Shown in pieces: positions 794 through 31,110 of a stretch of DNA of 43,602 nt. Positions within the stretch are counted from its first letter, which is position 1. The number at the start of each line of letters is the position of its first letter. The notes below the pieces were generated by a model. It saw nothing but the letters and a program-made list of their open reading frames with translations, was not told where the DNA came from and searched no databases. This DNA comes from an uncultured Bacteroidales bacterium (lineage in GTDB: Bacteria > Bacteroidota > Bacteroidia > Bacteroidales > FEN-979): assembly GCA_903875045.1 (NCBI GenBank), contig CAIQUS010000250.1:1-43602 (forward strand), read 5' to 3'. The translations under genes were made by a program, and so were the position numbers.

Positions 794-1532
794 ATGAAAA
801 CAGTATCCTTTTTTATCGCTTTGCTTCTCCTCGCTAACTGCGCATTGTTGGCGCAGGTGAGCATCAATACCGACAACAGTACACCAGATGTATCGGCCAT
901 GCTCGATGTGAAATCTACGATCAAAGGTTTTTTGCCTCCAAGAATGACCACAACACAGCGCAAATGCGATTATTTTACCGGTAGCCGGTCTTACCATTTA
1001 CAATACCACCAAAAACTGTAATGAAACATATAATAGTTCCTCCTGGGTTACCAACACGCACTATATCGGCGAAAGCTATGGCGGAGGTATCGTGTTTTAT
1101 GTTTATGACAACGGGCAGCACGGTTTAATTGCGGCAACTGCTGATCAAAGCACAGGAATCAGATGGTATGGTGGTTCTTATACAAATACACGTGCCAGAG
1201 CAGATGGTGTTGGTGCCGGATTAAAAAACACCTCAATAATTATCGCCAATCAGGGCCCGGTTGACGGGAATGTATTTGCAGCCACCGTGTGCAATGAATA
1301 TTCAATAACGGTTGGTGGTGTTACATACGGCGATTGGTATTTGCCATCATTTAATTTATTGTACCTGCAAGAAAATGTCGTTGGCGGTTTTGCTAGTGAC
1401 TACTATTGGAGTTCCTCCGAGTACGGTCCCAACAGTATCTACGGCGCGTATAGCCAGATCTTCCACGATGGCTTACAGGGCTTCGGCCCTAAGGCCGCCG
1501 CTTACTATGTGCGTGCTGTTCGGGCTTTTTAA
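794..1532 (+). pseudogene. Secreted DUF1566-tip surface protein, frameshifted
   Basis: The first 56 codons give a signal peptide ([21 protein letters not shown]) and the shared N-terminal module of this region (a MLDVKST motif followed by PPRMTT.QR). At position 961 an extra C throws the frame: CAGCG-C-AAATGCG. Removing it restores QRNAI as in the paralogs and joins directly to a continuous downstream frame reading through GGGIVFYVYDNGQHG to a stop at 1532. The joined product would be about 245 residues. Its second half matches the DUF1566 pattern: GQHGLIAA, DQSTGIRWYGG, DWYLPS, YYWSSSE and a final YVRAVRAF. That domain is thought to have a C-type-lectin-like fold. The damage is one base, so it could also be a sequencing or assembly error or a phase-variable indel. 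There is no homopolymer at the site, which argues against simple slippage. Confidence 0.8.
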
Positions 1533-1560
1533 CAATTAATCCATTTAACCATTAAATAAT

Positions 1561-1587
1561 AACCGCATAGCGGTCGGATTTTTTTTC
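1561..1587. terminator. Rho-independent terminator
   Basis: ACCGC-ATA-GCGGT forms a short stem, followed after CGGA by eight Ts. It lies 30 bases after the frameshifted DUF1566 gene and before the convergent T9SS gene at 1813, as expected for a terminator of the plus-strand gene. Confidence 0.55.
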
Positions 1588-1812
1588 AAAAATGGCACTG
1601 CATAACGACTTGCCGGCGGAGTAATTTTACACACTCGGTTTGACAAAGAACCAGTTTTTTCATACGTCATTTTTTTATCGGTTAATACCATGAGATTTTC
1701 TGTTCTTTGTGAGAATAAATGAATGAAATTACAACAATATTGGCACGCAACTATTTCTGCCCGTAACCGTTCCTGCTCATGGCTAAACCGACACTGCGGC
1801 GGTGCAACCATG

Positions 1813-3873
1813 TTACTGAACGATCATTTTACGGGTTATCACCGACTTGCCGTCGCTGACCCTGACCAGGTAGAGCCCCTTCCTGAAACGGGAGAGATCG
1901 AACCGGGCGGGATCCCCCTGCATTTGGTTGGCCTGCAATAACACCTCCCCGATGGCATCGGAAATTGACAGCACGGCCGGAAGCTCCAGGTTGACCGTTT
2001 CGACCGTGAACACACCATTGTTTGGATTGGGGTATATTTTCAGCCTTTGATCCTCCCGGGGGTCGTCAGGAGCTGATGTTGTTGAAGCGACAACCGAATT
2101 TTTGTATGCGCCGGAGGGTGCGGCAACACCCGGGGGAACACTGCAGTAGCTGGAATTGGGGGTGATATATGCATGGATGTTACTGCCGCTCCTGGCATAG
2201 AATCCCGGCTCAATGAGCACGGAATATCCTGCAATAAGATCGACCGTCGAACCGGTCCAAAACACCACCGGGCCCGCACTGCCGCCAACCGTCAGGGTGC
2301 CTGTGGCATCGAAGCAGGCTGATTCCCCCGCGGTGACTGAAGTATCGGTAACCAGCCGGGACGCCCGTTGACCATCTACAAAAATGGCAAGGGTCATTGA
2401 TGGGATCGAGGACCATATCCCGACACCTCCCGTGTTTGTGAAAAGCATGCCTGCGCCTGTGCCGGTGTAACCACTGGACAACCCAACCGCCGAACGGCCT
2501 GTTGCCCCGGGATTGTTGTACCCGTCGACCACGACCCAGTATTTGGCCCCGATCGTCAATGGTATGTTGAGTCCCGTTTCATAAAACCAGGCACCCGTGG
2601 TTGAAGGATTTAACAGGCTGCCCTGGTAAAGGGGCGCACTCACGTTGGGATATCCCGAACCGTTATCCCCGGCAATGGCGAGAAGAACCTCCCCCCCTGC
2701 ATCGATTTCCTGTAAAACAACCCCGAAATTCTTGAGTACATCCACATCGGCATAAAATGACTGCGCATAGAAATCTGACCCGGATGCACCGAGAGACGAC
2801 ACATAATTGAGGTTGGCCCCGTTGTTCTCATCAATGATGGCAGCATTGATCCCTTCAACATAAATGGCGATGGTCATAGAGGATATGGAAGACCAGTAAC
2901 CGACACCGGCCGAATTTGAATAAAGCATCCCTTCGCCGGTATCCGTGGAAGTGCCCGACAGCCCGACAGCCGACCTCCCGGTTGCACCCTGGTTATTGTA
3001 CCCGTCGATCAGCACCCAGTATTTTTGCCCCATGGTTACCGGGATGCTGAGGCCTGTTTCATAAAACCAGGCACCCGTGGTGGTTGGGTTTCTCAGCGGC
3101 CCCTGGTACAGGGGGGCGCCGACGTCAGGGGCCCCGGATCCGTTGTCGGCGACGATGGAGAGTACCAGCTGCCCTTCGGGATCAATTTCCCGGAGAACCG
3201 CGCCGAACCGTGTAATGATGTCGACGCCCGCATAAAATGATTGTGCGTAAAAATCGGAGCCGGTTGCACCGATGGATGAAACAACGTTGTTGTTCCAGCC
3301 ATTGTTCTCGTCGATGGTCGCCGGTTTGATGCCCTCCACATAAATGGCAAGGGCCATGGTGGGAATCGAGGACCAGCTGCTCCCTGCCGTGTTTGAATAG
3401 AGCACTCCTTCCCCGGTCCCGGTGTAACTGTCCGAACGCCCGACACCCGACTTGCCGGTTGCCCCGGCATTGTTGTATCCGTCGATCAGGATCCAGTATT
3501 TCTGTCCAACGGTTACGTTTACACTGATGCCGGTCTCATAAAACCAGGCGCCTGAGGTTGTGGGGTTTTGCAGTGTTCCCTGGTACAGGGGAGCGGCAAC
3601 ATTGGGCTTCCCGGTGCCATCATCCGCTGCAATCGAAAGAATCAGTTGACCTTCCGATTCTATTTCCTGGATAACAACCCCAAACCTGGTGATGGTATTG
3701 ACATGTGCATAAAATGACTGCGCGTAAAAATTGGAGCCGGTCTGGCCGATAGCTGAGAGAATAATTGAATTCCAGCTGGTATTTTCGTCCACAAACTGCG
3801 CCTTGACCATATTAAAAGGGCTCAGGGCGAGCATGACCAGTGGAACAATTGTGATGAGAACTGACTTTTTCAT
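1813..3873 (-). CDS. T9SS cargo with three 160-residue repeats
   Basis: The likely start is the ATG at 3873, giving 686 residues and a clean signal peptide (MKKSVLITIVPLVMLALSP...VKAQ); a longer in-frame start at 3945 would bury it. Residues about 27-186, 187-346 and 347-505 are three tandem repeats, each opening with (V/I)DEN and containing FYAQSFYA, PLYQG, GAWFYETG, KYW(I/V)L(I/V)DGYNN and an AI(Y/F)V(E/D)G ending. The order and spacing suggest beta-sandwich modules. Residues about 510-590 hold a glycine- and serine-rich segment resembling the '3-coathanger stack' often found before sorting domains. The last about 75 residues are a T9SS type A sorting domain, starting at KIYPNPNNG and ending GLYLVRVSDGKSVITRKMIV. 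Export across the outer membrane by T9SS follows from that family. The binding target of the repeats is unknown. It is monocistronic and convergent with the gene upstream. Confidence 0.85.
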   Translation of the reverse strand: MKKSVLITIVPLVMLALSPFNMVKAQFVDENTSWNSIILSAIGQTGSNFYAQSFYAHVNTITRFGVVIQEIESEGQLILSIAADDGTGKPNVAAPLYQGTLQNPTTSGAWFYETGISVNVTVGQKYWILIDGYNNAGATGKSGVGRSDSYTGTGEGVLYSNTAGSSWSSIPTMALAIYVEGIKPATIDENNGWNNNVVSSIGATGSDFYAQSFYAGVDIITRFGAVLREIDPEGQLVLSIVADNGSGAPDVGAPLYQGPLRNPTTTGAWFYETGLSIPVTMGQKYWVLIDGYNNQGATGRSAVGLSGTSTDTGEGMLYSNSAGVGYWSSISSMTIAIYVEGINAAIIDENNGANLNYVSSLGASGSDFYAQSFYADVDVLKNFGVVLQEIDAGGEVLLAIAGDNGSGYPNVSAPLYQGSLLNPSTTGAWFYETGLNIPLTIGAKYWVVVDGYNNPGATGRSAVGLSSGYTGTGAGMLFTNTGGVGIWSSIPSMTLAIFVDGQRASRLVTDTSVTAGESACFDATGTLTVGGSAGPVVFWTGSTVDLIAGYSVLIEPGFYARSGSNIHAYITPNSSYCSVPPGVAAPSGAYKNSVVASTTSAPDDPREDQRLKIYPNPNNGVFTVETVNLELPAVLSISDAIGEVLLQANQMQGDPARFDLSRFRKGLYLVRVSDGKSVITRKMIVQ

Positions 3874-3976
3874 GGGTTCGGTTTTTAGTGGCGGGTCAAC
3901 ATATGGGGAATCATCGGAATCGTGCAGTGGGGGTCCAGAAAGCAATCAATACATTTCTGTAAAGTTACGATGATTC

Positions 3977-4222
3977 TTGCAAAAATCAGCCGGGTGTTCA
4001 TTTTTTTCGACCAATCGCACCGGCTGGGTGGACAGGCTTGTGCATGATATTGATATTTTGGTTCGGTTCAAATCCACCTTGTCGCTGCTCCAGTTAGTCC
4101 ATGTTGAAAATTTAATGTCGCAAAAACTTGGAATCCAAGTCGACCTTGTAACCGAAGGCGCCGTGAAAAATAGAATTTTGAAGGAAAGTATTCAGCAAGA
4201 TCTTCAAATAATATTTCAATGA
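3977..4222 (+). pseudogene. Truncated MntA-like nucleotidyltransferase (antitoxin) remnant
   Basis: From about residue 24 the frame reads DIDILVRF, then a helix, then a QVDLVTEGAVKNRI block and a short tail. This is the second half of the minimal nucleotidyltransferase (MNT) fold. The first half, with the GS(x)9DxD glycine-serine motif, is missing; only the DxD aspartates remain. The 23 residues before DIDIL are unlike the family, so the breakpoint is near 4046. Its stop overlaps the start of the HepT-like ORF by four bases (ATGA at 4219-4222), the usual arrangement of MntA/HepT pairs. In intact systems MntA AMPylates and silences the HepT RNase. This copy cannot be active. Confidence 0.75.
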
Positions 4223-4545
4223 TTAAAACGGATCAAGTTTATCTTGAACACATTCTTGAGGCCATCACAAAAATTGAGCGCTTCACTAAAGGAATTTCAA
4301 GGTTTGATTTTGACCACAATGTCATGATTCAGGATGCGATCATAAGAAATATAGAAATCATTGGAGAAGCGACAAAGAAAATCTCAAACGAATTATCACA
4401 AATTCATAAAGAAATTCCTTGGTCTGAAATGGCCGGGATGAGTATTTAACTCATTCATGATTATATGGATGTTGACCTTGATGTGGTGTGGAAAACAATT
4501 GAGGTTGATTTACCACTCCTTAAAGAGCTAATTTCTAACAGCTGA
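4219..4545 (+). pseudogene. HepT-like RNase toxin remnant with nonsense codon
   Basis: The frame begins MIKTDQVYLEHILEAI and is a four-helix HepT/DUF86 protein, with RNIEIIGEATKKIS and the WSEMAGM block. A TAA at 4447-4449 then interrupts it. Translation beyond the stop in the same frame gives LIHDYMDVDLDVVW and ends at 4545, which is the normal family C-terminus. The damage falls in the catalytic RX4HXY motif. The arginine position reads Ser and the stop lies between it and the still-present H and Y. So the gene would be inactive even with read-through. Total length with the stop ignored is 108 codons, the usual size. Confidence 0.8.
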
Positions 4546-4776: not shown

Positions 4777-4819
4777 TCCTGTTGCTAAATGGATCTGATA
4801 ATCTACCACTTAGTGCAGA

Positions 4820-6261: not shown

Positions 6262-8466
6262 ATGAAAATATTATCATTAATGATCGTCATGCTGTTGCTT
6301 AACAGCATTCTATTGTTTTCACAAGTAGCAATTAATGCCGATGGGAGCGCTCCTGATAATTCAGCGATGCTTGATGTGAAATCAACCACAAAGGGGATGC
6401 TCATTCCCTGCATGACCCTGTCTGAACGCGATGAAATCGACAATCCGGCAACCGGTTTGCTGATCTTCTGCACCGATGATAATCAGTATTATTCCAATAA
6501 AGGAACTCCATCCATATCCAACTGGGTGATTGTGAGCAGCCAGTGGTTATTTACCGGTTCAGATATTTATTTTACCGGTGGCAGAGTTGGTTTGAGTAAA
6601 ACAAATCCTAACTTCACTCTCGATGTTTTAGGGGATATCAATTTTTCCGGTACTTTGAGGAATAATGGCACAACTGTCGGTAACGGCATTTCTGCGGTCA
6701 CCGCAACCGCTCCTTTAACGAGCAGCGAAGGAGCAACCCCAAATATTTCAATCTCGCAGGCCAATTCAGTTACAAACGGATTTCTTTCTTCGACAGATTG
6801 GAATACCTTTAACAATAAACAGAATACACTGACCTTTGGGAATCTCACATCAGGTGATATAGCTTTAACAGGCGGCGCCGGAGCCGTCAATGGTAGCGGA
6901 ACAAGCATGACCGTTAATAAAGGAAACCTCACCGAGGAAACATCTTCTGTTCTTACTGTATCAGGAGGAACCGGGTCTGTTTTGGGAACCGGCACTTCGA
7001 TACAGGTGAAGTCAGCCAACACTAGCCAGTCGGGTTACCTGAGCAGTACTGAATGGAATAGTTTCAACAACAAAGTTTCAAGTCAGTGGGTTACAAATGG
7101 TCAGGATATATCCTATAATACGGGCAAAGTCGGGATTGGCACAGCTACGCCAGCTTCATCTGCAGCCCTTGAAATTACCAGTACAAATAGCGGAGTGTTG
7201 TTTCCCCGGATGACCCTGGATCAACGTAATGCCATAACCGGTCCTGCTGAAGGACTGATGGTTTTTTGCACGGATTGTGGCGCTGGTGGCACATTGAGTT
7301 TTTATTCCAATGGCGCATGGAGGACCTATACACCTTGTGCGGCTCCGTCTCCCTCAGTGGGCTCTCATATCGTTACGCCCGGTCAGATAACCTGGAACTG
7401 GACGACCGTTGAAGGTGCTACCGGTTACAGATGGAACACTACCGATAGTTTTGGACCTGCTGTTGATATGGGAACAAGCACATCAAAAACCGAAACCGGT
7501 ATTGCCTGTGACGCAATCTGCACAAGATATGTATGGGCTTATAATGCCTGTGGGGTATCTGTGTCGACAGCACTTTCCCAAACCATTCCGTCAGTTGCTC
7601 CTGCCACTCCCACTGCCGGTACCCATACCTCAATTCAAATCTCAATAGATTGGAACTGGAACACGGTTTCGGGTGCCACGGGATATAAATGGAATACTTC
7701 CAGTGATTATGGCACTGCAACCGATATGGGAGCCTCAACTACTAAAAGTGAAACAAACCTGACCTGCAACACCTCCTATAACCGGTATGTCTGGGCATAT
7801 AATGGCTGTGGATATTCCTCCCCAGTAACTTTATCGTACTCAACACTCACCTGCTGCGGGCTTTATTCCATCACCGTCAGCCATGTGGCAGGAAACGTTG
7901 CGCCGGTAGCAAAAACGCTCACGTACGGCACCGTCACAGGTATACCTGGCGAACCTTCAAAATGCTGGATTACCAGTAACCTTGGCGCCGACCACCAGGC
8001 AACCTCCAAGGATGATGCTACCGAACCCTCGGCAGGCTGGTACTGGCAGTTTAACAAAAAGCAAGGGTATCGGTATACTACAGCGAGAACACCCGCCAGC
8101 ACCTGGATATACCCTGTCAATGAAAACCTTGACTGGCAGGCTGTCAACGACCCCTGTGCCCTTGAACTTGGTACCGGCTGGCGTGTTCCAACTTCTGCCG
8201 AATGGATCAATGCAGATGCAGGTGGAAACTGGACTAACTGGACAGGTCCCTGGGAATCTTTGTTAAAGCTCCATGCTGCCGGTTACCTGCGCCCGGACAA
8301 TGGTGCGATGGACGCTGTCGTCCGCGGTGTATATGGCGAATACTGGAGTAATACGCAGATCAGCAATACCAACGCTAATAGCTTGACTATCTATTTTGCT
8401 TACACCGTGGTGATCACTCGTCAAAAGGCTCAAGGCCATTCACTGCGCTGTATCAGAAACTATTAA
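6262..8466 (+). CDS. Secreted tail-fibre-like modular surface protein, third tip type
   Basis: This is a 734-residue protein. Residues 1-20 are a signal peptide. Residues 21-88 are the shared N-module ([15 protein letters not shown], then LIPCMT where relatives have RMT). Residues about 95-295 form a shaft like phage or eCIS tail fibres, with GRVGLSKTNP.FTLDVLGDINFSG, two copies of (F/Y)LSST(D/E)WN(T/S)FNNK and KVGIGTATP. Residues 300-358 are a second N-module. Residues about 360-530 hold two Fn3-like repeats, each with a WNW...GATGY(R/K)WNT strand pair and RYVWAYN.CG. Residues 531-734 are the tip: CWITSNLGADHQAT, GWYWQFN, GWRVPTSAEW, YWS and a closing SLRCIRNY. That ending is of the FISUMP/C-type-lectin kind but is a variant without the QCWMAQNLN opening. 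It has no T9SS sorting domain. The function is probably binding at the cell surface (inference). It lies 47 bases before its paralog, as an operon-like tandem. Confidence 0.8.
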   Translation: MKILSLMIVMLLLNSILLFSQVAINADGSAPDNSAMLDVKSTTKGMLIPCMTLSERDEIDNPATGLLIFCTDDNQYYSNKGTPSISNWVIVSSQWLFTGSDIYFTGGRVGLSKTNPNFTLDVLGDINFSGTLRNNGTTVGNGISAVTATAPLTSSEGATPNISISQANSVTNGFLSSTDWNTFNNKQNTLTFGNLTSGDIALTGGAGAVNGSGTSMTVNKGNLTEETSSVLTVSGGTGSVLGTGTSIQVKSANTSQSGYLSSTEWNSFNNKVSSQWVTNGQDISYNTGKVGIGTATPASSAALEITSTNSGVLFPRMTLDQRNAITGPAEGLMVFCTDCGAGGTLSFYSNGAWRTYTPCAAPSPSVGSHIVTPGQITWNWTTVEGATGYRWNTTDSFGPAVDMGTSTSKTETGIACDAICTRYVWAYNACGVSVSTALSQTIPSVAPATPTAGTHTSIQISIDWNWNTVSGATGYKWNTSSDYGTATDMGASTTKSETNLTCNTSYNRYVWAYNGCGYSSPVTLSYSTLTCCGLYSITVSHVAGNVAPVAKTLTYGTVTGIPGEPSKCWITSNLGADHQATSKDDATEPSAGWYWQFNKKQGYRYTTARTPASTWIYPVNENLDWQAVNDPCALELGTGWRVPTSAEWINADAGGNWTNWTGPWESLLKLHAAGYLRPDNGAMDAVVRGVYGEYWSNTQISNTNANSLTIYFAYTVVITRQKAQGHSLRCIRNY

Positions 8467-8513: not shown

Positions 8514-10751
8514 ATGAAAACCTTATCATTTATTATCGTTATACTACTGATAAACAGTAGATTGCTATTATCGCAGGTTGCCATCAATACTGAGGGCGCT
8601 TCTCCCGACAATTCAGCTATGCTCGATGTGAAATCAACCACAAAGGGGATGCTCATTCCCCGCATGACCATCACTGAACGTAATGGGATAGCCAGCCCTG
8701 CAAACGGATTGCTGATCTTCTGCACCGGTGATAACCAATATTACTCCAACAAAGGAACTCCTGCCGTACCCAACTGGGTGATGGTGAGCAGCCAATGGTT
8801 TTTCAACGGTTCTGATATTTATTTTATCGGTGGCAGAGTCGGGTTAAGTAAAACAAATCCAGCCTACACACTCGATGTTCTGGGGGATATCAATTTTTCA
8901 GGTACGTTGCTAAAAAATGGCACGGCAGTCGTAACCGGCGTGTCTTCAGTCACCGCGACTACCCCTTTAACGAGTAGCGGTGGGTCAACCCCGAATATTT
9001 CGATTCCGCAAGCCAGTTCAGGTTCAAACGGGTATATCTCTTCGTCAGATTGGAATACATTTAACAACAAACAGAATGCATTGACATTCGGAAATCTCAC
9101 ATCCGCTGATATAACTGTAACTGGAGGTAACGGTGCTGTTATAGGCAGCGGAACAACCATGACCGTAAATAAAGGAAATCTCACCGAGGCAACTTCCTCT
9201 GTTCTTACCATAACAGGTGGAACAGGTTCTGTCCTGGGAACCGGCGCTTCGATCCAGGTAAAGTCGGCCAATTCCAGCCAGTCGGGTTACCTGAGCAATA
9301 CTGACTGGAATAGTTTTAATAATAAGGTTTCGAGCCAGTGGGCTACAGCCAGTCAGGATATTTATTATAATACCGGCAAAGTAGGGATCGGCACAGCAGC
9401 ACCAGTTTCATCTGCAGTTTTGGAAGTTGCCAGTACAAGCAGCGGTGTGTTGTTACCCCGCATAACGCTTGATCAACGTAATGCCATAACCAGCCCTGCC
9501 GAAGGTTTGATGGTATTTTGCACGGATTGTGGCGCTAATGGTACCCTGAGCGTTTATTCAAATGGTACATGGATGACCTATTCTCCCTGTGTGGTCCCAT
9601 CTTCTACACAAGGTTCTCATATTGTATCACCCGGTCAGGTAATCTGGAACTGGACAGTGGTTGCAGGCGCTACCGGTTACAAATGGAACACAACCGCCAG
9701 TTACGGTACTGCCCTTGATATGGGATCGGCCATATCAAAGACCGAAACCGGTATTGCCTGTGGTACAAACTACACACGATATATATGGGCCTATTATGCT
9801 TGTGGGGTATCTGTTTTGACAACGCTTTCTCAAGCCATAGCAGCCATTTCCCCTGCCACCCCCTCCTCCGGCACCCATACTTCGACCGAAACCTCCATTG
9901 TTTGGAACTGGAACTCGGTAACTGATGTTACGGGATATAAATGGAATACTGAAAATAATTTTGAAACCGCAACGGATATGGTAACCGCAACCTCTAAAAA
10001 TGAAACAAGCCTGACATGTGGAACGTCCTATACACGATATGTGTGGGCGTACAATGGCTGCGGATATTCCACACCAGTTACTTTAACGCAATCAACGCTT
10101 GCCTGCTGCGGGATTCCCATCACCGACAGCCGCGATGGCAAGAGTTATAATACAGTCGTGATCGGAACGCAGTGCTGGCTAGCTCAAAACCTCAACGTGG
10201 GAACAATGATCGCCGGTGCGGGTACCCAGGCCAACAATGGTATTATCGAAAAATATTGTTACAGTAATAATGAAGACAATTGCTCCATCTACGGGGGATT
10301 ATATCAATGGAGTGAAACGATGAATTACACTACTTCAACCAATTCAAATCCAAGTGGCCGCGAAGGTATATGTCCATCCGGCTGGCATTTGCCATCGGAT
10401 GCCGAATGGTGCCAGATGGAAACCTTTCTTGACGCAACGGTAAATTGCACCGGTACCGGATGGCTGGGTACGAATGCAGGCGGAAAAATGAAAGAAATTG
10501 GCACCAGCCATTGGTTAACCCCGAATACCGGCGCAACTAACAGTAGTGGCTTTACTGGTCTTCCGGGAGGCATGAATCAAGGTGGCTCGTACTCCACTAT
10601 CGCCAACTATGGGTATTTTTGGACTACTGTCGAATGTAGCTCAACGAGTGCCTATTACCATTCACTGTACTATAATAGCGCTACAATTTATCGAACCTGC
10701 CTCAGCAACAATAAGCCATGGGGATACTCCGTCAGGTGTGTAAAGAATTGA
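8514..10751 (+). CDS. Secreted tail-fibre-like modular surface protein, FISUMP tip
   Basis: This 745-residue tandem paralog of the preceding gene has the same signal peptide, N-module, shaft, second N-module and two Fn3-like repeats over residues 1 to about 530, clearly alignable throughout. The C-terminal about 210 residues differ. They are a canonical FISUMP domain: [72 protein letters not shown] and a final SVRCVKN. Like its neighbour, it lacks a sorting domain. The sharp switch from conserved to unrelated sequence at the start of the tip suggests module exchange by recombination. Surface display and binding are inferred from domain architecture only. Confidence 0.85.
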   Translation: MKTLSFIIVILLINSRLLLSQVAINTEGASPDNSAMLDVKSTTKGMLIPRMTITERNGIASPANGLLIFCTGDNQYYSNKGTPAVPNWVMVSSQWFFNGSDIYFIGGRVGLSKTNPAYTLDVLGDINFSGTLLKNGTAVVTGVSSVTATTPLTSSGGSTPNISIPQASSGSNGYISSSDWNTFNNKQNALTFGNLTSADITVTGGNGAVIGSGTTMTVNKGNLTEATSSVLTITGGTGSVLGTGASIQVKSANSSQSGYLSNTDWNSFNNKVSSQWATASQDIYYNTGKVGIGTAAPVSSAVLEVASTSSGVLLPRITLDQRNAITSPAEGLMVFCTDCGANGTLSVYSNGTWMTYSPCVVPSSTQGSHIVSPGQVIWNWTVVAGATGYKWNTTASYGTALDMGSAISKTETGIACGTNYTRYIWAYYACGVSVLTTLSQAIAAISPATPSSGTHTSTETSIVWNWNSVTDVTGYKWNTENNFETATDMVTATSKNETSLTCGTSYTRYVWAYNGCGYSTPVTLTQSTLACCGIPITDSRDGKSYNTVVIGTQCWLAQNLNVGTMIAGAGTQANNGIIEKYCYSNNEDNCSIYGGLYQWSETMNYTTSTNSNPSGREGICPSGWHLPSDAEWCQMETFLDATVNCTGTGWLGTNAGGKMKEIGTSHWLTPNTGATNSSGFTGLPGGMNQGGSYSTIANYGYFWTTVECSSTSAYYHSLYYNSATIYRTCLSNNKPWGYSVRCVKN

Positions 10752-19770: not shown

Positions 19771-21654
19771 ATGAAGATTTTAAAATTATTTCCCATCGTC
19801 ATTATTTTGTGGTCGTTTTGTCTTCCATCGGGTGCCCAGGAATCCAAGGCCACCAAACCGGTTGTTAAAGGTAATCCTGCACCGCAACGAAAAGCAAGTC
19901 CTCAAAGTACGCCGGTTAAAAACATGAAGCCGGTTAAGGAACCTAAACCGGTTAAAATAGGTAAATCAATCTGGTCGCAGGAAAACCTGAATGTGACCAG
20001 TTTCCAGAACGGAGACCCCATCCCTGAGGTGAAAACAACTGAAGCGTGGAAAAAAGCCGGCGAAGATGGTGAACCAGCCTGGTGTTTTTACAACAATGAT
20101 CCGGCAAACGGCCTAAAATACGGCCGGCTGTACAACTGGCATGCGGTAATGGATCCTAGGGGATTGGCCCCGTATGGCTGGCATATCCCGGCGGAATCGG
20201 AATGGGAAGAACTGATCAGTCTCCTGGGGGGGAATACTTCCGGTGGTAAAATGATGTCAACGGGAACAACCCTGTGGGAAAGCCCGAACAAGTATGCCAC
20301 CAATGAAACCGGATTTACGGCACTGCCTTCAGGTACAAGGTATTATTTTGGTGATTTCAGCGGAATCCGCGAAGGTACAGGCTTCTGGACCACCACAGCC
20401 ATTGACCTGAAAAGTGCTTTCAGCCATTCGCTTGATAATGGCTTTGGCATATTTGGCACGGGGTCAGTGGTCAAGGGTGGCGGCTTGGCAGTACGCCTTA
20501 TAAAGAATGACTTACTAAATCCCGGCTTCAAAACGATGGCCATCGGCGACTACATCTGGATGGCACAAGACCTGAAAGCCGTTAAATTCAGAAACGGGGA
20601 TGCGATCCCGGAGGTCAGAACAACAGAGGACCTGGAAGAGGCAGGCAAAACGGGCAAGCCTGCATATTATATCTTGCGGAAAGGAGCAGATGTTACCTTC
20701 TTTTACAATTGGTTCGCTGTAAATGATCCCCGGAAACTGGCCCCTGCAGGATGGCACATCTCAACACCCGGTGAGTGGACCGATTTGTTGTCGGAACTCG
20801 GTGGCGCTGCAAAAGCGGGTGAGAATATGAGAAAAGGCCGGTTTAACGCTACCGCTCCCGGCGTGGTTCAGTTCGGAACCATTATGAGTGCCGGCATGAT
20901 GGCCGCATGGTGGACCCTCGAAGAAACCGGAACAGAATTTGCCTCTGCTGCCGTCGCTCCGTTTATCCTCAGCAATGAGATAAAGATGAACCCGCTGGGG
21001 AAAACATTTGGATTGCTGGTTCGCTGTGTGAGCGACAGTATTGCACAACTGCCCGGCCCCCGGCATGTGTTTGGCACCATGACCGACCAGGAGGAAACCT
21101 CTTATAAGACAATTGTTATCGGCAGGCAAACCTGGATGGCGGAAAACCTGAAGGCGACGAAACTTAACGACGGAACGGAAATACCAAATGAAACAGATCG
21201 TTACAAGTGGCAAAAGTTGTCATCCCCGGGTTATTGCTGGTTCAGAAACGACCGGGATAAATACAGGAAGCGAATGGGGGCATTGTACAACTACTTCGCG
21301 GTAGAAACCGGAAAGCTTTGTCCCAGTGGCTGGCATGTGCCTTCAAAGGATGAATGGACTGCGCTGATTGAGTTTCTTGGTCCGGAAGCAGGTGGAAAAA
21401 TGAAGGTTACCGGAACGGATTACTGGCATGCCCCGAACCTGGGTGCAACCAATGAATCGGGATTTTGCGGAGTGCCGTCCAGCTATTTCTCAGATTCTTT
21501 TGGGGATGCCGATCGTGTTTCCTATTATTGGAGCAGTACTTCCGATAGCGACAGAGATGCCTATCAGAGTCTCCTGAACTGTGATTTTTCAGACCTCAAA
21601 TGCACCTCCTACAAAAAGGCAAGCGGGAACAGTGTCAGATGCCTGAAGGATTAG
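19771..21654 (+). CDS. Secreted triple-FISUMP protein
   Basis: This is a 627-residue protein. Signal peptide 1 to about 22 (LWSFCLPSGAQ), then a Lys/Pro-rich linker (24-62, with KPVKEPKPVK). Three FISUMP domains follow at about 63-246, 247-422 and 432-627. Each has a WxAENL/WMAQDL/WMAENL opening, a GR(L)YNWHAV or YNYFAV block, GWH(I/V)P...EW and a closing VRLI/VRCV/VRCL. The first two copies lack the cysteines of the third (CPSGW and SVRCLKD) and are more diverged, so the third is closest to the standalone paralogs. It lacks the N-module found in the other FISUMP genes here and has no sorting domain. A role in surface binding is inferred. The upstream 125 bases are free of other genes, so it has its own promoter. 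Confidence 0.8.
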   Translation: MKILKLFPIVIILWSFCLPSGAQESKATKPVVKGNPAPQRKASPQSTPVKNMKPVKEPKPVKIGKSIWSQENLNVTSFQNGDPIPEVKTTEAWKKAGEDGEPAWCFYNNDPANGLKYGRLYNWHAVMDPRGLAPYGWHIPAESEWEELISLLGGNTSGGKMMSTGTTLWESPNKYATNETGFTALPSGTRYYFGDFSGIREGTGFWTTTAIDLKSAFSHSLDNGFGIFGTGSVVKGGGLAVRLIKNDLLNPGFKTMAIGDYIWMAQDLKAVKFRNGDAIPEVRTTEDLEEAGKTGKPAYYILRKGADVTFFYNWFAVNDPRKLAPAGWHISTPGEWTDLLSELGGAAKAGENMRKGRFNATAPGVVQFGTIMSAGMMAAWWTLEETGTEFASAAVAPFILSNEIKMNPLGKTFGLLVRCVSDSIAQLPGPRHVFGTMTDQEETSYKTIVIGRQTWMAENLKATKLNDGTEIPNETDRYKWQKLSSPGYCWFRNDRDKYRKRMGALYNYFAVETGKLCPSGWHVPSKDEWTALIEFLGPEAGGKMKVTGTDYWHAPNLGATNESGFCGVPSSYFSDSFGDADRVSYYWSSTSDSDRDAYQSLLNCDFSDLKCTSYKKASGNSVRCLKD

Positions 21655-22878: not shown

Positions 22879-23799
22879 ATGAAAAAGTTTACAAAATTGT
22901 TTTTGGCAGCCTGTTTGATTACAGGTTTTGCTTGTGCTGTAAATGCCCAAAGCGTGGGCATCAGTGCTGATGGCTCGGCGCCGGATAACTCGGCGATGCT
23001 GGATCTGAAATCTACAACCAAAGGTCTCCTGCCGCCACGAATGACAACTGCCCAGCGAAATGCCATCGCCTCTCCTGTCAGCGGATTAATGATTTATAAT
23101 ACCGACGAAAAAAATATTAATGTTTTTAACGGCGAATCATGGGCTTTACTAAGTCCGGTTGTTTGCGGGCAAACCTTCAGCGACTCCCGCGATGGCAAAA
23201 TTTACGCAACTGTGCAAATTGGCACTCAATGCTGGATGGCGCAAAACTTGAATGTGGGAACAAGGATAAATGGTTCCGTAACACAGACTAACAACAGCCC
23301 AATTCCAATTATCGAAAAATACTGTTACAACAACAATGAAGCTAATTGCAATGTTTATGGAGGCCTTTACCAGTGGGATGAAATGATGCAATATTCCACA
23401 AATCCCGGAATACAAGGCATTTGCCCTCCATACTGGCATTTGCCGACTGATGCTGAATGGTGCACGCTGGCTATCTTCCTTGATGCCTCTGTAAATTGTT
23501 CGATAGAGGGTAATTTGGGTACCAATGCTGGTGGAAAAATAAAAGAAGCCGGAACAACTCATTGGAATTCTCCCAATACCGGAGCTACCAACAGCAGCGG
23601 ATTTACGGCATTACCCGGTGGTTTCTGTCCCTCCGGTGATTTTTTCTCATACCTTGGTTCCGAGGGCCACTTCTGGACCTCCACCGTCTATTCGGCTTCG
23701 AATGCCTGGTACCGCCTGCTCGCAGCCGATAAAGCTACCATAAACCGCAGCAAACCTCTCAGGGGCTATGGTCTTTCTGTGCGGTGCATCATGGATTAG
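22879..23799 (+). CDS. Secreted short FISUMP protein 1
   Basis: This 306-residue protein has a signal peptide (residues 1-23, ending CAVNAQ). The N-module spans about 24-90 ([37 protein letters not shown]) and joins directly to a FISUMP domain (about 95-306) without shaft or Fn3-like repeats. FISUMP landmarks are [74 protein letters not shown] and LSVRCIMD. It is the first of two tandem copies, 26 bases apart. No sorting domain is present. The function is inferred to be surface binding. Confidence 0.85.
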
Positions 23800-23825: not shown

Positions 23826-24701
23826 ATGAGAAATTTTACAAAATTGTTTTTGGCAGCTTTCCTGCTCACAGGCCTCGCTTTTAGTTTACATGCCCAGGGT
23901 GTGGGGGTAAATGCTGATGGCTCGGTACCAAATAATTCAGCTTTGCTGGATGTAAAGTCTGACGCTAAAGGATTTTTACCCCCCAGAATGAATACCATAC
24001 AGCGGAATGCTATAACCGCTCCGGCTGAAGGATTGATTATTTACAACACAGATGAAGAAACAATTAATTTTTATAATGGCACCAGATGGCGTTTGTTGAG
24101 TCAGGTCGTTTGTGGGCAAAGATTCAGGGACCCGCGCGACGGCAAAATTTACCCGACTGTACAAATAGGCACCCAATGCTGGATGGCGAAAAACCTGAAT
24201 ATAGGGACAAGGGTAAATGGTTCACAAGGACAGACGAACAACAGCCCAACCCCGGTTATCGAAAAATACTGCCACGAAAACAATGAAGCCGACTGCGAGG
24301 TTTATGGAGGCCTTTACCAATGGGATGAAATGATGCAATATTCCACAGTTCCCGGTGTGCAGGGTATTTGCCCCACAGGATGGCATTTGCCCACCAATGC
24401 TGAATGGACAACATTAATAACTTTTCTGGGCGGTGAAATGGTTGCAGGAGGAAAAATGAAAGAATCCGGAACAGCTCATTGGGCAGCCAGCAATACAGGC
24501 GCAACGAACAGCAGCGGATTCACAGGTCTTCCGGGTGGTTCCCGCGAAACGAATGGAGAATTCAGCATCCTCGGCTGGGACGGGAACTTCTGGAGTTCTT
24601 CCCAGAACTCGGCTGCAACACTTACCTGTCTCAGCAGCGTCATAGGCATGTTTTTCAACGAAAAGGCCTCTGGTCTTTCAGTTCGCTGTATCAGGGATTA
24701 G
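23826..24701 (+). CDS. Secreted short FISUMP protein 2
   Basis: This tandem paralog of the preceding gene has 291 residues from the ATG at 23826 ([19 protein letters not shown]); an in-frame ATG at 23784 lies inside the previous gene and is unlikely. The architecture is the same: signal peptide, N-module ([20 protein letters not shown]) and FISUMP tip. Identity to copy 1 is high up to [14 protein letters not shown]. It then falls in the last 60 residues, where the loop between FWSSS and LSVRCIRD is unlike copy 1 in sequence and six residues shorter. Such concentration of change in the tip loop suggests diversifying selection or recombination on the ligand face. Confidence 0.85.
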   Translation: MRNFTKLFLAAFLLTGLAFSLHAQGVGVNADGSVPNNSALLDVKSDAKGFLPPRMNTIQRNAITAPAEGLIIYNTDEETINFYNGTRWRLLSQVVCGQRFRDPRDGKIYPTVQIGTQCWMAKNLNIGTRVNGSQGQTNNSPTPVIEKYCHENNEADCEVYGGLYQWDEMMQYSTVPGVQGICPTGWHLPTNAEWTTLITFLGGEMVAGGKMKESGTAHWAASNTGATNSSGFTGLPGGSRETNGEFSILGWDGNFWSSSQNSAATLTCLSSVIGMFFNEKASGLSVRCIRD

Positions 24702-24752: not shown

Positions 24753-24768
24753 CGGTCAAAATAATTGG

Positions 24769-25968: not shown

Positions 25969-27968
25969 GGAGTGTTGCTTTTTTTAAAAATGACCGTTGC
26001 AGATTCACCGTCCCTGAGCACTTTATCAAGAATGATTTTACCTGTCTTTTTAACAAGGACCCTTCTTTTACCATCATGGGAAGTTACCTCAAGATCGAAT
26101 TTTGTTCCATATCCTGAAATATTCCTGATGCGCATATTTTTCCATCCTTCCGGCAGGTGCGGGTCAACTGTGAAGGAATTGAGTCCGGTCGGGCGGATTC
26201 CGAACAGGCCTTCAGTATAAACCCGGCAGTACAGTCCGCTTTCGGCAGACAAGTGACGCTGGTTGCCCTCGGGCCAGGCTTCAACAGGATAGGGAACGTG
26301 ATCTCCAAGCAGCCTTCGGTTTGAATAATATTGCAGGTATTCGAGGCCACGTTTTGTATCCCCGGCTGCGAGTGCGCCACGGAGGGCATAGAGCGTAGAG
26401 CGGTCCCAGAAAGTCTTGTCCCCGGCCTGGGAGGCCAAACCGTCGGCAGTCCACAGTTCCGGGGAAAAAAGTGCATCAATGGTGCCTTGCTTTCGATCGA
26501 AGATATTAACGGTAAGCGGGATGCATATCCAGGACCTCAGCTTGTCATTGCCTTCATAGTAACGGTATGTGTGAAATCCCACGAGATCGGCCCCAAAGTA
26601 TCCTTCGATGTTTTCCCTGAGCATTTCCGCCTCTTTCTAATAGGCCTGAACAATTTCAGGTTCTTTCCCCATGGATTTGCCTAGATACACGGCGGAGATC
26701 AGGGCGTCATAATACAGGGATGAGGTGCAGAGATTGGCTTCTCCGGAAGGAAACCTCCCTTCCAGTTCATCCGAGTTGGATGTAACAACCCCCCGGGCAT
26801 TCAGATGTCGCCGGTTGTATTCGAGGCACCATGCTATAAGGGGCCAGAGTTCTTCAGCGATAACAGGATCTCCCTGAGAAAGTGCAAACCGGGAAGCTCC
26901 ATAGGCGATCATGGCCGCATCACCCCTGTCTCCGGCCCCATTCCAAATGTCGGTTCCTTCAGCAATAATCGAACTGGGAATGGGATTGTAAGCGTCATTC
27001 ATGAATCGCGCGAAATGCCGGTATGCATTCAATGCGGATTCGATTCCGTATTTATATCCAAGGTAGGGGAAGAATGGATTGATGTATTCAGCCTGATCAT
27101 TGGCCCAGATCGCGGCATAATAACTTAGTCCCCCTGGCCCGTGCATGGGTCCGCCCCTGGTCTGGAAAATACTTTCGGCCGCCCGGATCTTGGCGAAGGA
27201 AAAAGCAGTATTTAAAATCAGATCGGGGGTTTCAAGCACCAGGTTGTCCGAAAATTCTGAAATCAGGGTATTTCGTTTTACCAGTTCATTTTCAACATCG
27301 GCCACGATGATGTCCTGGCCTTCTTTCAATGCAGTGAAATAAAGGTAAAACCGGGCTGTTTCTCCTGGCTTAAGCTGGAACACTCCATGATTCACCGACC
27401 CGGTAACAATACGATAGCTTCCGTCGACCCCTGCATCAGGATCGGTTGTGTTCATTACCTTAACTTCCGGGATCTCCAATGTCACCATTTTTTGCCCGAT
27501 ATTTTTCAGTTCATATTTTTCACAGAATGTCGGGAGGGTGGTCGACGGATATAGTGTTCTGGCAAGGTCTATTTTCCCGTCAAATGTGCTTTTTACAGTG
27601 ATTTTTCCATCCAGGACAACTTCATAAACCTTTTCGTGCAGCAGCAATTTTTTATTGACAAACAGCAGGGTGACCGGGTCAAGGTTAAAAGAACGGATTA
27701 AACTGGCATGTGTATTATTTGGTATGGTCCGCAGCAATGGCCAAACCATATCCCTTCTTAGGAAAAAAGAGCTGTCGGTATTTACACCATAACTAATCAC
27801 GGCAGAGATCTGCTGGCCACTCAATTCAATATGATCAGTGTGCGGGAGGCGATTATCAATCGTCCATTTTATGGCGTGGGTGTCTGACGGAACCCAGCGG
27901 TTCTGCTGTCCTGACACGCAAAGGGACAAAAGCAGCGGTAAAAAAACAATGATCTTTTTCAATGGCAT
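25965..27968 (-). pseudogene. Six-hairpin glycosidase with in-frame amber codon
   Basis: One frame of 668 codons runs from ATG 27968 (signal peptide MPLKKIIVFLPLLLSLCVSG) to TGA 25965, broken once by TAG at 26637-26639 after residue 443 (VQAY-TAG-KEAEMLREN). Residues about 25-245 are a beta-rich N-terminal domain. Residues about 250-600 look like an (alpha/alpha)6 toroid (IWANDQAEYINPFFPYLG, GTDIWNGAGDRGDAAMIAYG, PYPVEAWPEGNQRHLSAESG). A C-terminal beta domain ends at IFKKSNTP. No frame is shifted and the sequence reads well on both sides. So it is a fresh nonsense mutation, a base-call error, or stop read-through. I cannot fix the GH family. It is coupled to GH27, so the substrate is probably an alpha-galactoside-containing glycan. 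Confidence 0.75.
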
Positions 27969-28172: not shown

Positions 28173-28300
28173 GGACAAAACAAAGCGTTTTAACACCTTC
28201 CACCGAATATAGTTGACCACCTTTATTAGCAATCAATTAAATGAGATGGTCAGGCTTTTTCAGCGAAGGCTGGTCAAGGCCAGTGTTTTTTCCAATCAAA
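28173..28300. repeat. TGACC/GGTCA boundary element upstream of lipoprotein gene
   Basis: GGACAAAACAAAGCGTTTTAACACC, GTTGACCACC, ATCAATTAAATGAGATGGTCAG and CAGCGAAGGCTGGTCAA in order. The same series occurs at 40572-40695. Related single motifs are at 43370-43410. The first part of the gap (27969-28172) holds TTGACCCCTGTAAGTTGGAT at 28083-28102, which is like an IS3/IS150-type terminus, and nothing else recognisable. Confidence 0.55.
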
Positions 28301-28305
28301 CTCCT

Positions 28306-28340
28306 CCTGATAATAATCAGGCAATTCCTGCGTTTTTTTT
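28306..28340 (+). terminator. Hairpin with T run ahead of the lipoprotein gene
   Basis: CCTGATAATAATCAGG is followed by CAGGCAATTCCTGCG and eight Ts. The duplicated locus keeps it (40724-40745, perfect CAGGAATTTCCTG stem then CG and seven Ts). It would stop transcripts coming in from the repeat, or attenuate the gene if the promoter lies further upstream. Confidence 0.4.
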
Positions 28341-28406
28341 ACTAAATTTTTTCTATCGGCGATATATTACTTTTTCCTGACATTTTATTAACCAAAACTC
28401 CAAATC

Positions 28407-29054
28407 ATGAAAAAGTTATCATTCTTGATGATGGCCGTTCTGATTACCGGCCTGAGTTCGTGTCACAAAGACGCGACCAATAACATCCAACGCGAAGATC
28501 ATTTAACATTTTTCCCTCTTCTCCCCGGGAATTATTGGATCTACCAGAATTATGAGATTGACTCAATCGGGAAGGCCACTCCTACTAACGACTGGGACAG
28601 TTCCTATATTTCAGGCGATACGATGATCCGGGGCAACATGTACTTTGCGATGCATGAAAAACCGGTTTTGTATATGCCGGAACAATCGGTCTCATACCTT
28701 AGAGATTCTTCGGGATATATTGTCGATCACACGGGGAAGATACGTTTCGCAGAGAATAATTTCTCGGACACCCTTTATGAAGACACCTCAAACCTCGTCC
28801 TCTTCCACGGATACGCGGCCATGTGGGCAAAGGATTCAACCGTAACGGTCCCGTGCGGCTCATTCATCACAAGGAGCGTACGCATGTCGGTTGTTCCCAC
28901 CCGGAACAATGATCCGTACCCGACCAGATATTCCTATGATATCTATGGAAAGAATATCGGACGTATCAAGTTCCATACTTTCTTTTACGCCAGCAACAAG
29001 CATTTTGAAACACGGCTTGTGAGAGGCAAAGTCGTAATTGAAACCCATGATTAG
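28407..29054 (+). CDS. Lipoprotein of unknown function
   Basis: This 215-residue protein has an N-terminal lipoprotein signal, MKKLSFLMMAVLITGLSSC, with a lipobox LSSC and Cys19 as the acylated residue. The mature part opens with FFPLLPGNYWIYQ, a beginning common in small Bacteroidota lipoproteins of beta-sandwich type, and closes with GKVVIETHD. I see no catalytic motif. It is flanked by repeats and has a deleted copy at 40.57-40.91 kb, so the whole locus, including its 5' and 3' flanks, has been duplicated. Confidence 0.7.
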   Translation: MKKLSFLMMAVLITGLSSCHKDATNNIQREDHLTFFPLLPGNYWIYQNYEIDSIGKATPTNDWDSSYISGDTMIRGNMYFAMHEKPVLYMPEQSVSYLRDSSGYIVDHTGKIRFAENNFSDTLYEDTSNLVLFHGYAAMWAKDSTVTVPCGSFITRSVRMSVVPTRNNDPYPTRYSYDIYGKNIGRIKFHTFFYASNKHFETRLVRGKVVIETHD

Positions 29055-29317
29055 GATTCCAGACTGATTTTTTTCATTTAAAAAGCCGGAATTCAGAGCC
29101 TGGTGAGAGCAGAATCATTTCCTCCCTGCCCACGTTACTTTATGGATTATAAGAACCCAGATAAGGCAGGTTGAAATGATGTTACATTCCAAACATAATC
29201 AAATGCAGGAACATTTTTTACCTGGGGAAGAACTATGAAAATTTGTTTGGACCCCTGACAAATTAGACATTTTAGATAAAAATATCTAAGCAAATATTTT
29301 TAGAAATAACGGAATGC
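29055..29317. other. Intergenic region with IS3-like terminus
   Basis: GGACCCCTGACAAATTAGAC and ATTTTAGATAAAAATATC at 29245-29285 resemble the terminus at 28083-28131 on the other side of the lipoprotein gene. No transposase is present. The first 60 bases (AAAAAGCCGGAATTCAGAGCCTG) are duplicated at 40890-40912. Confidence 0.4.
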
Positions 29318-29560
29318 TCAATCAATGAACGCTTTAAGGCTGTAAAAAGGAAGTAAGATAGTTGCAACTTTGAGCATTAAGGGGAGCCCAAGGGGCCAAG
29401 CCGGTATTCCTGCCGGCTTGTTTTTTTTCCCTTCCAGATCGTTTGATATCCAATCAATTAATCCAAACACATGGTTTATTTCTTTGGTTCGACAAGTTCC
29501 ATTATCGAATTTTAACTTTTCAGAAAACATTAAACCAATGAACTGGGGTGGTTGGTTTGC
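29318..29560 (-). pseudogene. Serine recombinase C-terminal remnant
   Basis: On the minus strand the frame reads FIGLMFSEKLKFDNGTCRT, EINHVFGLIDWIS, then GKKNKPAGIPAWPLGLPLML. The first part matches the I(G/S)S(I/M)FPEKL.F..G.CRT..IN.V..LI ending of large serine recombinases of Bacteroidota. Only about 55 residues remain. The catalytic domain and zinc ribbon are gone. Repeat copy F forms its last codons, so the GTTGCAAC/hairpin element lies at the 3' end of this recombinase type. Confidence 0.65.
29359..29428 (+). repeat. GTTGCAAC/hairpin element, copy F
   Basis: TAGTTGCAACTTTGAGCATT, AAGGGGAGCC, then a hairpin AAGCCGG-TATTCCTG-CCGGCTT with eight Ts (29398-29428). It lies within the 3' end of the recombinase remnant on the opposite strand and 290 bases upstream of the next modular surface gene. 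Confidence 0.65.
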
Positions 29561-29718
29561 TTATAATCTGTAACTTCTGTAACTCCTTCGGAATTAGGGA
29601 ATCCGGTTTATTTAAGTATTTTCGCCAAATCATTCTTTCCAAACCCCGGATATTCAGAGGTTTTCCTTCCCAAATACTTAATACTTCATTCAAATTAATA
29701 TTTCCTTATGAGAAACCG

Positions 29719-31110
29719 GTGTACATTTTATTCCTGTTCCTTCTTTCAGGGATGGGTATTTTTGCGCAAGTAGGTATAAATGTCGACAACACTCCTCCTG
29801 ATCCTTCTGCAGGGTTGGATGTAAAATTCAGTAATAAGGGCGTTCTTTTACCCCGGATGACCCGTGCGGAGCGCAACGCAATCGGCGATGCTGCAGAAGG
29901 ATTGATGGTCTATTGCACCAATTGTGGCACGCATGGTGCATTAAGTATCTTCACAAATAAATTATGGATGACCTTTTCTCCTTGTGTGATCGAATCGCCT
30001 GTCGCCGGTACGCACATTATGTCGGAAGGACAAATTGTCTGGAACTGGTCTCCAGTTGCAGGGGCTCTCGGGTACAAATGGAATTTCTCTTCTGATTACG
30101 AAACTGCATCTGACATTGGTGTCACGTATTCATTCACCGAAACAGGCACTGTTTGCAATAGAAAATACAGGCGATACATCTGGGCATATACCAGTTGTGG
30201 TGAATCTGCAGTTACATCCCTGAGTACTACCGTACCTGTTAGTGTTCCTGCAACTCCTGTTGCTGCAACGCATGTTTCCACCCAATCCTCCATTTTATGG
30301 AAATGGCACCCTGTAACCGGCTCTACCGGATATAAATGGAGCTCCACGAACAACGTAACCACTGCAGTTGACATAGGAACTGATACAACGAAATACGAAA
30401 GTGCCCTGACATGTGGTGTGGAATATGAAAGATTTGCCTGGGCATACAATGGTTGCGGCTATTCTGTACCAGTTACGTTATTGCAATCAACACTTTATTG
30501 GTGCACTTGTGGAGATCTTTTAACAATTAACCATGTAGAAGGCTCCGTCGCACCAGTTACCAAAACCGTCACCTACGGCACTGTTGCCAACCTGCCCGGT
30601 GAACTTTCCAGGTGCTGGATTACCAGCAACCTCGGTTCCGACCACCAGGCATCTGCCGTGAACGATGCTTCAGAAGCATCAGCAGGCTGGTATTGGCAGT
30701 TTAATCTTAAACAGGGGTACAAACACGATGGCTCAACCATAACCCCCCAGACCAGTTGGATAGACGCTATTACTGAAAGTCTTGATTGGCAGACAGTGAA
30801 TGATCCATGTTCAATAGAGCTTGGTGCAGGATGGCGAATTCCAACTCACACGGAATGGTCAAATCTCAATGGATATTACGGTTGGATAAATTGGGATGGG
30901 CCATGGGGTTCAACCTTAAAAATCCATGCTGCCGGGCACCTTGAAAGCAGTGATGGCTCACTCTTAAATTGCGGTATAAAAGGCACATATTGGAGCACTA
31001 CACAGTTTAGTGCAAATTCCGGTTGGAACCTGAACTTTTCTCAAAGCATTAGTGCCATGTACTATGACAGTAAGGCGTTCGGCATGCCACTCCGTTGCCT
31101 CAGGGAATAG
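29719..31110 (+). CDS. Secreted modular surface protein, Fn3-like repeats and third tip type
   Basis: From GTG 29719 the product is 463 residues: signal peptide YILFLFLLSGMGIFAQ, N-module (ASGLDVKFSNKG with a PRMTRAERNAI block), two Fn3-like repeats (WNWSPVAGALGYKWN; WKWHPVTGSTGYKWS) and the tip found in the 6262 gene (CWITSNLGSDHQA, GWYWQFN, GWRIPTHTEW, LRCLRE). It therefore lacks the tail-fibre-like shaft. An ATG at 29708 begins MR but is out of frame by one base. Adding one A in AGAAACC would give MRKPVYILFLF in frame, so the original start was probably lost by a one-base deletion and GTG may now serve. Expression may therefore be reduced. Confidence 0.75.
   Translation: MYILFLFLLSGMGIFAQVGINVDNTPPDPSAGLDVKFSNKGVLLPRMTRAERNAIGDAAEGLMVYCTNCGTHGALSIFTNKLWMTFSPCVIESPVAGTHIMSEGQIVWNWSPVAGALGYKWNFSSDYETASDIGVTYSFTETGTVCNRKYRRYIWAYTSCGESAVTSLSTTVPVSVPATPVAATHVSTQSSILWKWHPVTGSTGYKWSSTNNVTTAVDIGTDTTKYESALTCGVEYERFAWAYNGCGYSVPVTLLQSTLYWCTCGDLLTINHVEGSVAPVTKTVTYGTVANLPGELSRCWITSNLGSDHQASAVNDASEASAGWYWQFNLKQGYKHDGSTITPQTSWIDAITESLDWQTVNDPCSIELGAGWRIPTHTEWSNLNGYYGWINWDGPWGSTLKIHAAGHLESSDGSLLNCGIKGTYWSTTQFSANSGWNLNFSQSISAMYYDSKAFGMPLRCLRE

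Follow-up and report, generated by a model that had tools for sequence, protein, structure and literature searches.

Predicted exported proteins with exchangeable tips and diversity-generating retroelement target sites in an uncultured Bacteroidales genome

We analysed contig C250 (CAIQUS010000250.1; 43,602 nucleotides, the window hereafter) of the 5.96 Mb draft genome of an uncultured Bacteroidales bacterium (253 contigs, 99.1% complete). The window carries seven loci, named here by their start positions, that combine a signal peptide, a short N-terminal module (the N-module) and C-terminal domains of three types (the tips; Table 1). An earlier note on this DNA had listed seven such loci, six with signal peptide and N-module and one, 19771, with tips alone; all seven are present with these parts, and the FISUMP, DUF1566/Lcl_C and third tip types that it distinguished were all found. 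The FISUMP (Fib_succ_major) profile scored above the Pfam cut-off at 8514, 19771, 22879 and 23826, had no match in 6262, and stayed below the cut-off in 29719 (Pfam and NCBIfam). Two other claims stood in part. The seven loci do lie on the plus strand, but this is a local matter and not a general pattern, and a minus-strand Lcl_C tip at 41019 had been overlooked. Locus 794 has the N-module and DUF1566 parts ascribed to it, but it is not a single intact gene, being split over two frames by a frameshift near 957–964. We consider it likely that the window loci are members of a repertoire of exported binding proteins that extends over the whole genome and is diversified both by exchange of tips and by a retroelement that writes into them.

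We searched the whole genome with a profile of the N-module built from eight rows, and obtained 100 matches at E ≤ 0.01. In the stretches fetched, the 100 domains lie in 80 open frames, corresponding to 78 genes because overlapping loci gave one duplicate and locus 794 was counted twice. The module spans ~68 residues and received no name from Pfam or NCBIfam; a PDB sequence search with it gave no match, and one with the third tip gave a single antibody match at chance level (E 0.93). The genome also has 77 FISUMP and 36 Lcl_C matches. Among 76 module frames, the C-terminal tip was of the third type in 27, FISUMP in 23, DUF1566 in 11 and something else in 15. Pfam scans of ten of these 15 proteins found Peptidase_S74 in two, and phage Tail Collar, InlB-type repeats and cohesin in one each; one further protein had a sub-cut-off match alone and four had no Pfam match. 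Some genes carry mixed tips in series, for example a DUF1566 tip followed by two third-type tips on contig C86. The residue preceding the module match is Q in 63 of the 76 frames, with AQ or SQ one or two residues earlier in the other 13, and a hydrophobic core lies ahead of the module in 74. From their predicted signal peptides, the module proteins are likely to be secreted. A type IX sorting motif, crudely defined, is absent from the 80 module frames, and Pfam scans found no Por_Secre_tail in the tip proteins of the window; this domain is present in the neighbouring genes at 1813, 16061 and 36547. The N-module occurs in 65 of 120 genomes, including the present one, and in 17 of the 18 other genomes of the genus.

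We next placed the tip types on a tree of 76 N-modules (72 columns; 27 of the 73 inner branches open), from which the duplicate frame, both pieces of 794 and a short frame on contig C147 were left out. The three tip labels, borne by 61 genes, required 26 changes; shuffled labels required 26.7 on average, and 219 of 500 shuffles needed no more than 26. When each contig was represented by a single gene (37 genes), the count was 15 and the shuffled mean 14.7. Adding the 15 genes with other tips as a fourth label gave 36 changes (minimum possible, 3; shuffled mean, 39.8; 22 of 200 shuffles as low), a count that leaves room for slight clustering of tips on the tree. The starred branches alone require at least 10 changes of the third tip, 7 of FISUMP and 9 of DUF1566. 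Sister modules carry different tips at C86:3420 and C86:424 (support 100/87) and, with weak support (88/22), at 6262 and 8514 in the window; some sister modules have the same tip. At the DNA level, 6262 and 8514 align without gaps at 69–88% identity up to ~7856 and with many gaps beyond, at the tip border. Because the tips fall on the module tree no better than chance, exchange of tips on a constant front is supported. The earlier note had proposed such swapping, and had named module and tip histories in agreement throughout as the contrary outcome; the tree, which has 72 columns and many unresolved forks, does not show such agreement. What the proposal had missed is that the tips are variable domains of the kind targeted by retroelements. 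Intergenic repeats of families D5, D7, D10, D12 and D13 were rejected as exchange sites, since among the stretches of this genome that were searched they occur in the window only, and not at module borders.

In a diversity-generating retroelement (DGR), a reverse transcriptase (RT) acting with Avd copies a template repeat (TR) and misreads adenines, and the copy replaces a variable repeat (VR) in the tip, near a short hairpin behind the stop codon. We found three RTs in the genome, on contigs C29, C93 and C244. To judge by its sequence, the element on C29 is a complete DGR. Its TR and VR mismatch at 20 of 57 adenines and at 0 of 126 other sites. The RT matches RVT_1 above the cut-off, and its nearest PHROG is a reverse transcriptase (E 2e-98); Avd matches Pfam bAvd at 55.2 bits (cut-off 40), the PHROG Avd at E 5e-19, and the NCBIfam Avd at E 2e-17, yet below the cut-off of the latter. 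The target is itself a member of the family, consisting of a signal peptide, N-module, shaft, second module, two Fn3-like parts and a third tip, which is the plan of 6262 and, the shaft apart, that of 29719. Its shaft matches tail-fibre families (E 8e-46).

A 192-residue frame between the target and the TR (locus L012) had no Pfam match at 0.01 and weak, unrelated matches in PHROG and NCBIfam. Its phmmer relatives (E < 1e-3) lie in other DGR loci, among them L083, L093, L098, L102, L118, L129 and L133, and we regard it as a candidate DGR accessory protein. No second DGR was seen in the 470 bases 3' of the RT at the end of contig C29. The other two RTs were rejected as parts of a DGR, having no TR/VR pair in the stretches fetched; that on C93 is nearest to retron models, below their cut-offs. 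This retron-like RT (L014, 5417–6628) lies shortly upstream of two N-module genes. Near the C244 RT (L013) there is a head-to-tail repeat of ~69 bases, and the neighbouring frames are presumably Cas1, Cas2 and type III genes.

A Blast search of the genome with the C29 TR gave 31 matches at E ≤ 10 and 18 at E ≤ 0.01, including the TR itself. We compared the TR with third tips in a codon alignment of 32 domains, after dropping a duplicate, a fragment and one domain cut short. Non-adenine differences from the TR numbered 0/124 for C29, 2/124 for C200 and 9–11/124 for C90, C198 and C178; at the far end of the range, they numbered 41/124 for 29719, 47/124 for 6262 and 63/122 for C194. Where AAN codons had changed, the third base was retained in 16/16 cases in C29, 14/14 in C200, 14/14 in C90, 16/16 in C178 and 14/15 in C198; in these five genes, C makes up 0.28–0.36 of the third positions. 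To separate homing from plain duplication, we compared non-adenine identity upstream of the VR (to C29) with that within the VR (to the TR). For C200, identity rose from 66% in the upstream flank to 98% in the VR (P 1e-15), and the corresponding values were 63% and 93% for C90, 67% and 91% for C178, and 73% and 92% for C198. A weaker rise was observed for C160, C31:31620 and C13:12404. At least four distant copies (C200, C90, C178 and C198) thus show the pattern of overwriting in trans by the C29 DGR. The remote VR on C90 (L026, 2870–5824) lies in a protein with an FGE-sulfatase domain, a third tip and a C-terminal Hint-type domain (PT-HINT/AXH); because the protein ends in the Hint-type domain, its VR is not C-terminal.

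We also screened 54 candidate templates, some of them duplicates, against the stretches of this genome. The VR of locus 794 differs from the template of G054, a genome of another family in the same order, at 29 of 55 adenines and 7 of 92 other sites (P 1.3e-9; 30 of 50 and 8 of 91 in the codon alignment, P 1.2e-10). It differs from a template-like repeat of the same-genus genome G015 at 28 of 50 adenines and 12 of 94 other sites (P 7e-8). With 794 used as the template there was no bias (P 0.97–1.0), which fixes the direction as template to 794. Other DUF1566 copies of this genome (7 shown of 14) differ at 16–24 of the 91 other sites. The 3' end of 794 matches the G054 VR, not the G054 template. 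We read 794 as a second kind of DGR target site, one with a DUF1566 tip, in what is or was probably a working gene.

The sequence ACCGCNNAGCGGTCG follows the VRs of C29, C200, G015, G054 and 794; it is not behind C198, C178, C160 or the other printed copies. It forms a hairpin with a 5-bp stem, a 3-nt loop and conserved sequence before T runs, and could double as a terminator. The hairpin has three matches in the 5.96 Mb genome, each just 3' of a VR (reversed control, 0), and 16 matches in 9 of 61 genomes searched (control, 2). Thirteen of the 16 lie 25–69 bases behind a tip domain, and all 13 of these tips have adenine-biased VRs (P ≤ 6e-5). Genomes G002, G009 and G027 carry hairpin sites, and no DGR RT was found in them. 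A sequence-conserved hairpin that appears to mark both live and orphan DGR sites is new as far as the literature searched goes.

Relatives of the RT were fetched with their surroundings at 54 loci, and 41 of them, some doubtful, contained two paired repeats whose mismatches fell at A (or at T, on the other strand) in 75% of cases or more. Their targets include third-type tips (L083, L129), FISUMP tips (L084, L085, L110, L118, L131, L133) and DUF1566 tips (L086, L088–L092, L097, L100, L127), and six of the loci also contain the N-module (L083, L097, L098, L118, L131, L133). RT relatives occur in 9 of 120 genomes and in 5 of the 19 same-genus genomes (including the present one); the RT frame is cut or broken in the same-genus genomes G001, G004 and G010. 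Within the present genome, the columns of template AAN codons are the most variable ones in the third tips (32 domains, P 9e-9), in the FISUMP tips (P 4e-8 against the G010 template, 40 domains) and in the DUF1566 tips (P 1e-5, 14 domains). All three tip types are targets of DGRs, in this genome or in relatives.

Several results weigh against the proposed DGR-diversified repertoire. For 29719 (68% vs 67%) and 6262 (66% vs 62%), identity in the VR did not exceed that in the flank. Compared with the TR of their own genome, 6262 differs at 27 of 56 adenines and 47 of 124 other sites (P 0.13) and 29719 at 23 of 56 and 41 of 124 (P 0.19), with no significant bias in either. The FISUMP tips of 22879 and 23826 are adenine-biased against a foreign template, L084 (P 8e-6 and 8e-4), but differ from it at 37% and 29% of non-adenine sites; 8514 and 19771, for which the templates are likewise foreign, show no clear bias. 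On these comparisons, the window tips other than 794 look cold, and the variable columns of cold copies may reflect ordinary loop evolution. A search of the genome with the G054 template returned 794 as the best match and no template, and no DUF1566-type TR or RT matching 794, whose gene is now frameshifted, was found in the draft assembly; in a 253-contig draft at 99.1% completeness, such a locus could have been missed. Three of the 16 hairpin matches (G009:C411, G005:C606 and G052:C50) are not near a tip, which is about the number expected from the control. Both structure models had low confidence over the tips, including in a check for a shared C-type-lectin fold, and the VIA-align rows fall on the Fn3 part (model residues 71–246). 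Because loop evolution could also make AAN columns variable, the argument for DGR writing is based on three other lines: the comparison of VR and flank, the adenine bias seen in fresh copies, and the hairpin.

The strongest competing explanation is an ordinary large family of paralogous adhesins, produced by duplication, divergence and shuffling, with the DGR a late guest on a few members and the window loci related by homology only. This would agree with the cold state of most copies, with the lack of a DGR RT match in same-genus genomes such as G013, G016, G017 and G018 despite up to at least 50 modules, and with the joining of the N-module to non-DGR parts (S74, Collar, cohesin, InlB-type repeats). 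It does not account for the VR and hairpin at 794, the overwriting of several copies distant from C29, or the match between variable columns and template AAN codons in all three tip families, and we consider it unlikely. That the loci are instead phage tail-fibre genes or prophage remnants is suggested by the tail-fibre matches of the C29 shaft (E 8e-46) and by the fusion of some modules to Collar or S74 parts. However, the module proteins have predicted signal peptides, their genes are spread over many contigs, two scans of viral contigs gave 2 and 1 relatives, and no phage structural gene was named in Pfam scans covering part of the window frames, making this origin very improbable. Least credible is site-specific inversion (a shufflon), with a recombinase switching tips on one body. 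Adjacent genes that share a body but differ in their tips (6262/8514; an array on C13) recall such a system, but every tip belongs to a gene that has a front of its own. The window has two inverted repeats of 25 bases or more (19388/36327 and 96/156), neither of them at a module border, and Pfam scans of the window proteins, again covering part of the frames, named no recombinase.

Table 1. Positions of the features in the window and on contig C29.
Feature	Position	Strand	Composition or remark
Locus 794, frame 1	794..1018	+	Signal peptide and first half of N-module (module match 857-964)
Locus 794, frame 2	948..1532	+	Module end (957-1055) and DUF1566/Lcl_C tip
Locus 794, VR of DGR type	1372..1535	+	Compared with G054 template
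Locus 794, post-VR hairpin	1562..1576	+	ACCGCATAGCGGTCG, then T run; one of three in genome
Locus 6262	6262..8466	+	Signal peptide, N-module 6325-6540, shaft, second module 7129-7335, Fn3-like parts, third tip ~7855-8460
Locus 8514	8514..10751	+	Tandem copy of 6262 body, modules 8577-8792 and 9381-9587, FISUMP tip ~10107-10745
Locus 19771	19771..21654	+	Three consecutive FISUMP tips, without N-module
Locus 22879	22879..23799	+	Signal peptide, N-module 22954-23157, FISUMP tip 23212-23790
Locus 23826	23826..24701	+	Signal peptide, N-module 23901-24104, FISUMP tip 24159-24695
Locus 29719	29719..31110	+	Signal peptide, N-module 29770-29982, two Fn3 folds, third tip ~30508-31107
Locus 29719, VR-like end	30926-31107	+	Without adenine bias against own template
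Locus 41019	41019..42173	-	F5/8 type C domain and Lcl_C tip, without N-module
C29 target gene	757-3783		
C29 192-residue frame	3871-4449		Between target and TR (L012)
C29 TR	4610-4792		
C29 Avd	4849-5199		
C29 RT	5165-6355		

We also noted other features of the window. The segment 40630–40891 shares sequence with 28224–29084 (families D5, D8 and D14): it carries the region ahead of the gene at 28407, the first codons of that gene and then its extreme end, and resembles a copy of the gene with an internal deletion. Short intergenic repeat families recur within the contig at 19193–19318, 28151–28300, 31135–31240 and 40572–40706, and at 4682, 15780 and 29360. An 84-base inverted pair lies at 19388–19471 and 36327–36410. 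The minus-strand frames 25965–26624 and 26637–27968, the second without a family match, are adjacent and read like one glycoside-hydrolase-type gene broken between them. At the contig edge (1–230), there are short repeats with CATCCCTTCGGGATT in both orientations.

Several elements of this arrangement have precedents. In Treponema denticola, one TR and RT serve several remote targets (seven in ATCC35405), and targets also occur in strains without RT and TR (PMC4891356); the dispersed remote targets of one DGR are alike, and the present genome differs in having 78 genes with one exchangeable front and three related tip types, mostly cold. Cyanobacterial DGRs have dispersed C-type-lectin paralogs with various N-terminal domains, some far from the RT and some with remnant TR homology (PMC7517822). 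Remote paralogs on different fronts are common to both; by that account, the cyanobacterial fronts are mostly of kinase type and the proteins mostly cytosolic, whereas here they are predicted to be exported, with a constant front and varying tips. DUF1566 and Fib_succ_major have been described as mutually similar DGR variable domains (PMC4159848); in the present genome the two are found on the same front, together with a third related tip. In Thiohalocapsa PB-PSB1, agreement between VRs and a distant TR at non-adenine sites led to the inference of diversification in trans (PMC10907252), as it does here; in that case the targets are related conflict-system proteins and there is read-level proof, whereas our evidence comes from assembled sequence alone. 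Intragenic recombination of DGR targets has been suggested, in a large survey whose approach would not detect target sites without an adjoining retroelement (PMC8144416). In phage BPP-1, a hairpin 3' of the VR is required for efficient homing (PMC3240598). Both that hairpin/cruciform and the one described here are short inverted repeats downstream of a VR, but the BPP-1 structures have 7–10 bp stems of free sequence and 4-nt GRNA loops 4–34 bp from the VR, unlike the conserved 5-bp, 3-nt form. Published work thus already covers targets that are remote or multiple, their grafting onto different fronts, the existence of cold copies, and targets that lack an RT (PMC4891356, PMC7517822, PMC10907252). 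No earlier description of a front-plus-tip repertoire was recognised by title or abstract in the literature searched, and within that literature the size and openness of the repertoire, with one front common to three tip types and to non-DGR tips, are new.

We propose that the constant front would consist of the signal peptide and N-module, with an optional phage-fibre-like shaft and Fn3 spacers, and would carry a ligand-binding tip from one related set (FISUMP, DUF1566/Lcl_C or the third type). Diversity would arise at two levels: duplication and recombination would move tips between fronts, as the observed pattern suggests, and the DGR would put random residues into tips. The C29 DGR appears to have written both in cis and in trans, into other genes of the family, and may still be doing so today; 794 would be a target site of the second type, for which the assembly holds neither template nor second DGR. 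The proteins are probably displayed outside the cell, where they may recognise changing partners such as cells, particles, phages or glycans. More tentatively, and with less confidence than in the repertoire itself, we suggest that in this genus retroelement and targets form separate, loosely coupled populations. The exported pool would be freely shuffled, and a tip would be writable as long as it retained a template-matching VR and the conserved hairpin; template and RT would come and go between genomes, a view prompted by three of the five same-genus RTs being broken or cut. Cold copies might then preserve binding solutions from earlier times, and orphan sites like 794 might be ports open to writing in trans by an element that was regained or came in as a visitor.

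Overall, these observations link targeted hypermutation to a large group of exported proteins, so far unexplained, from an uncultured genus of the Bacteroidota, and a single protein family shows both exchange of tips and diversification at points within them. The hairpin offers a practical pointer to DGR target sites without an adjoining retroelement. One cell seems to hold both stored and fast-changing sets of binding proteins, and what turns a cold tip into a hot one becomes a testable question.

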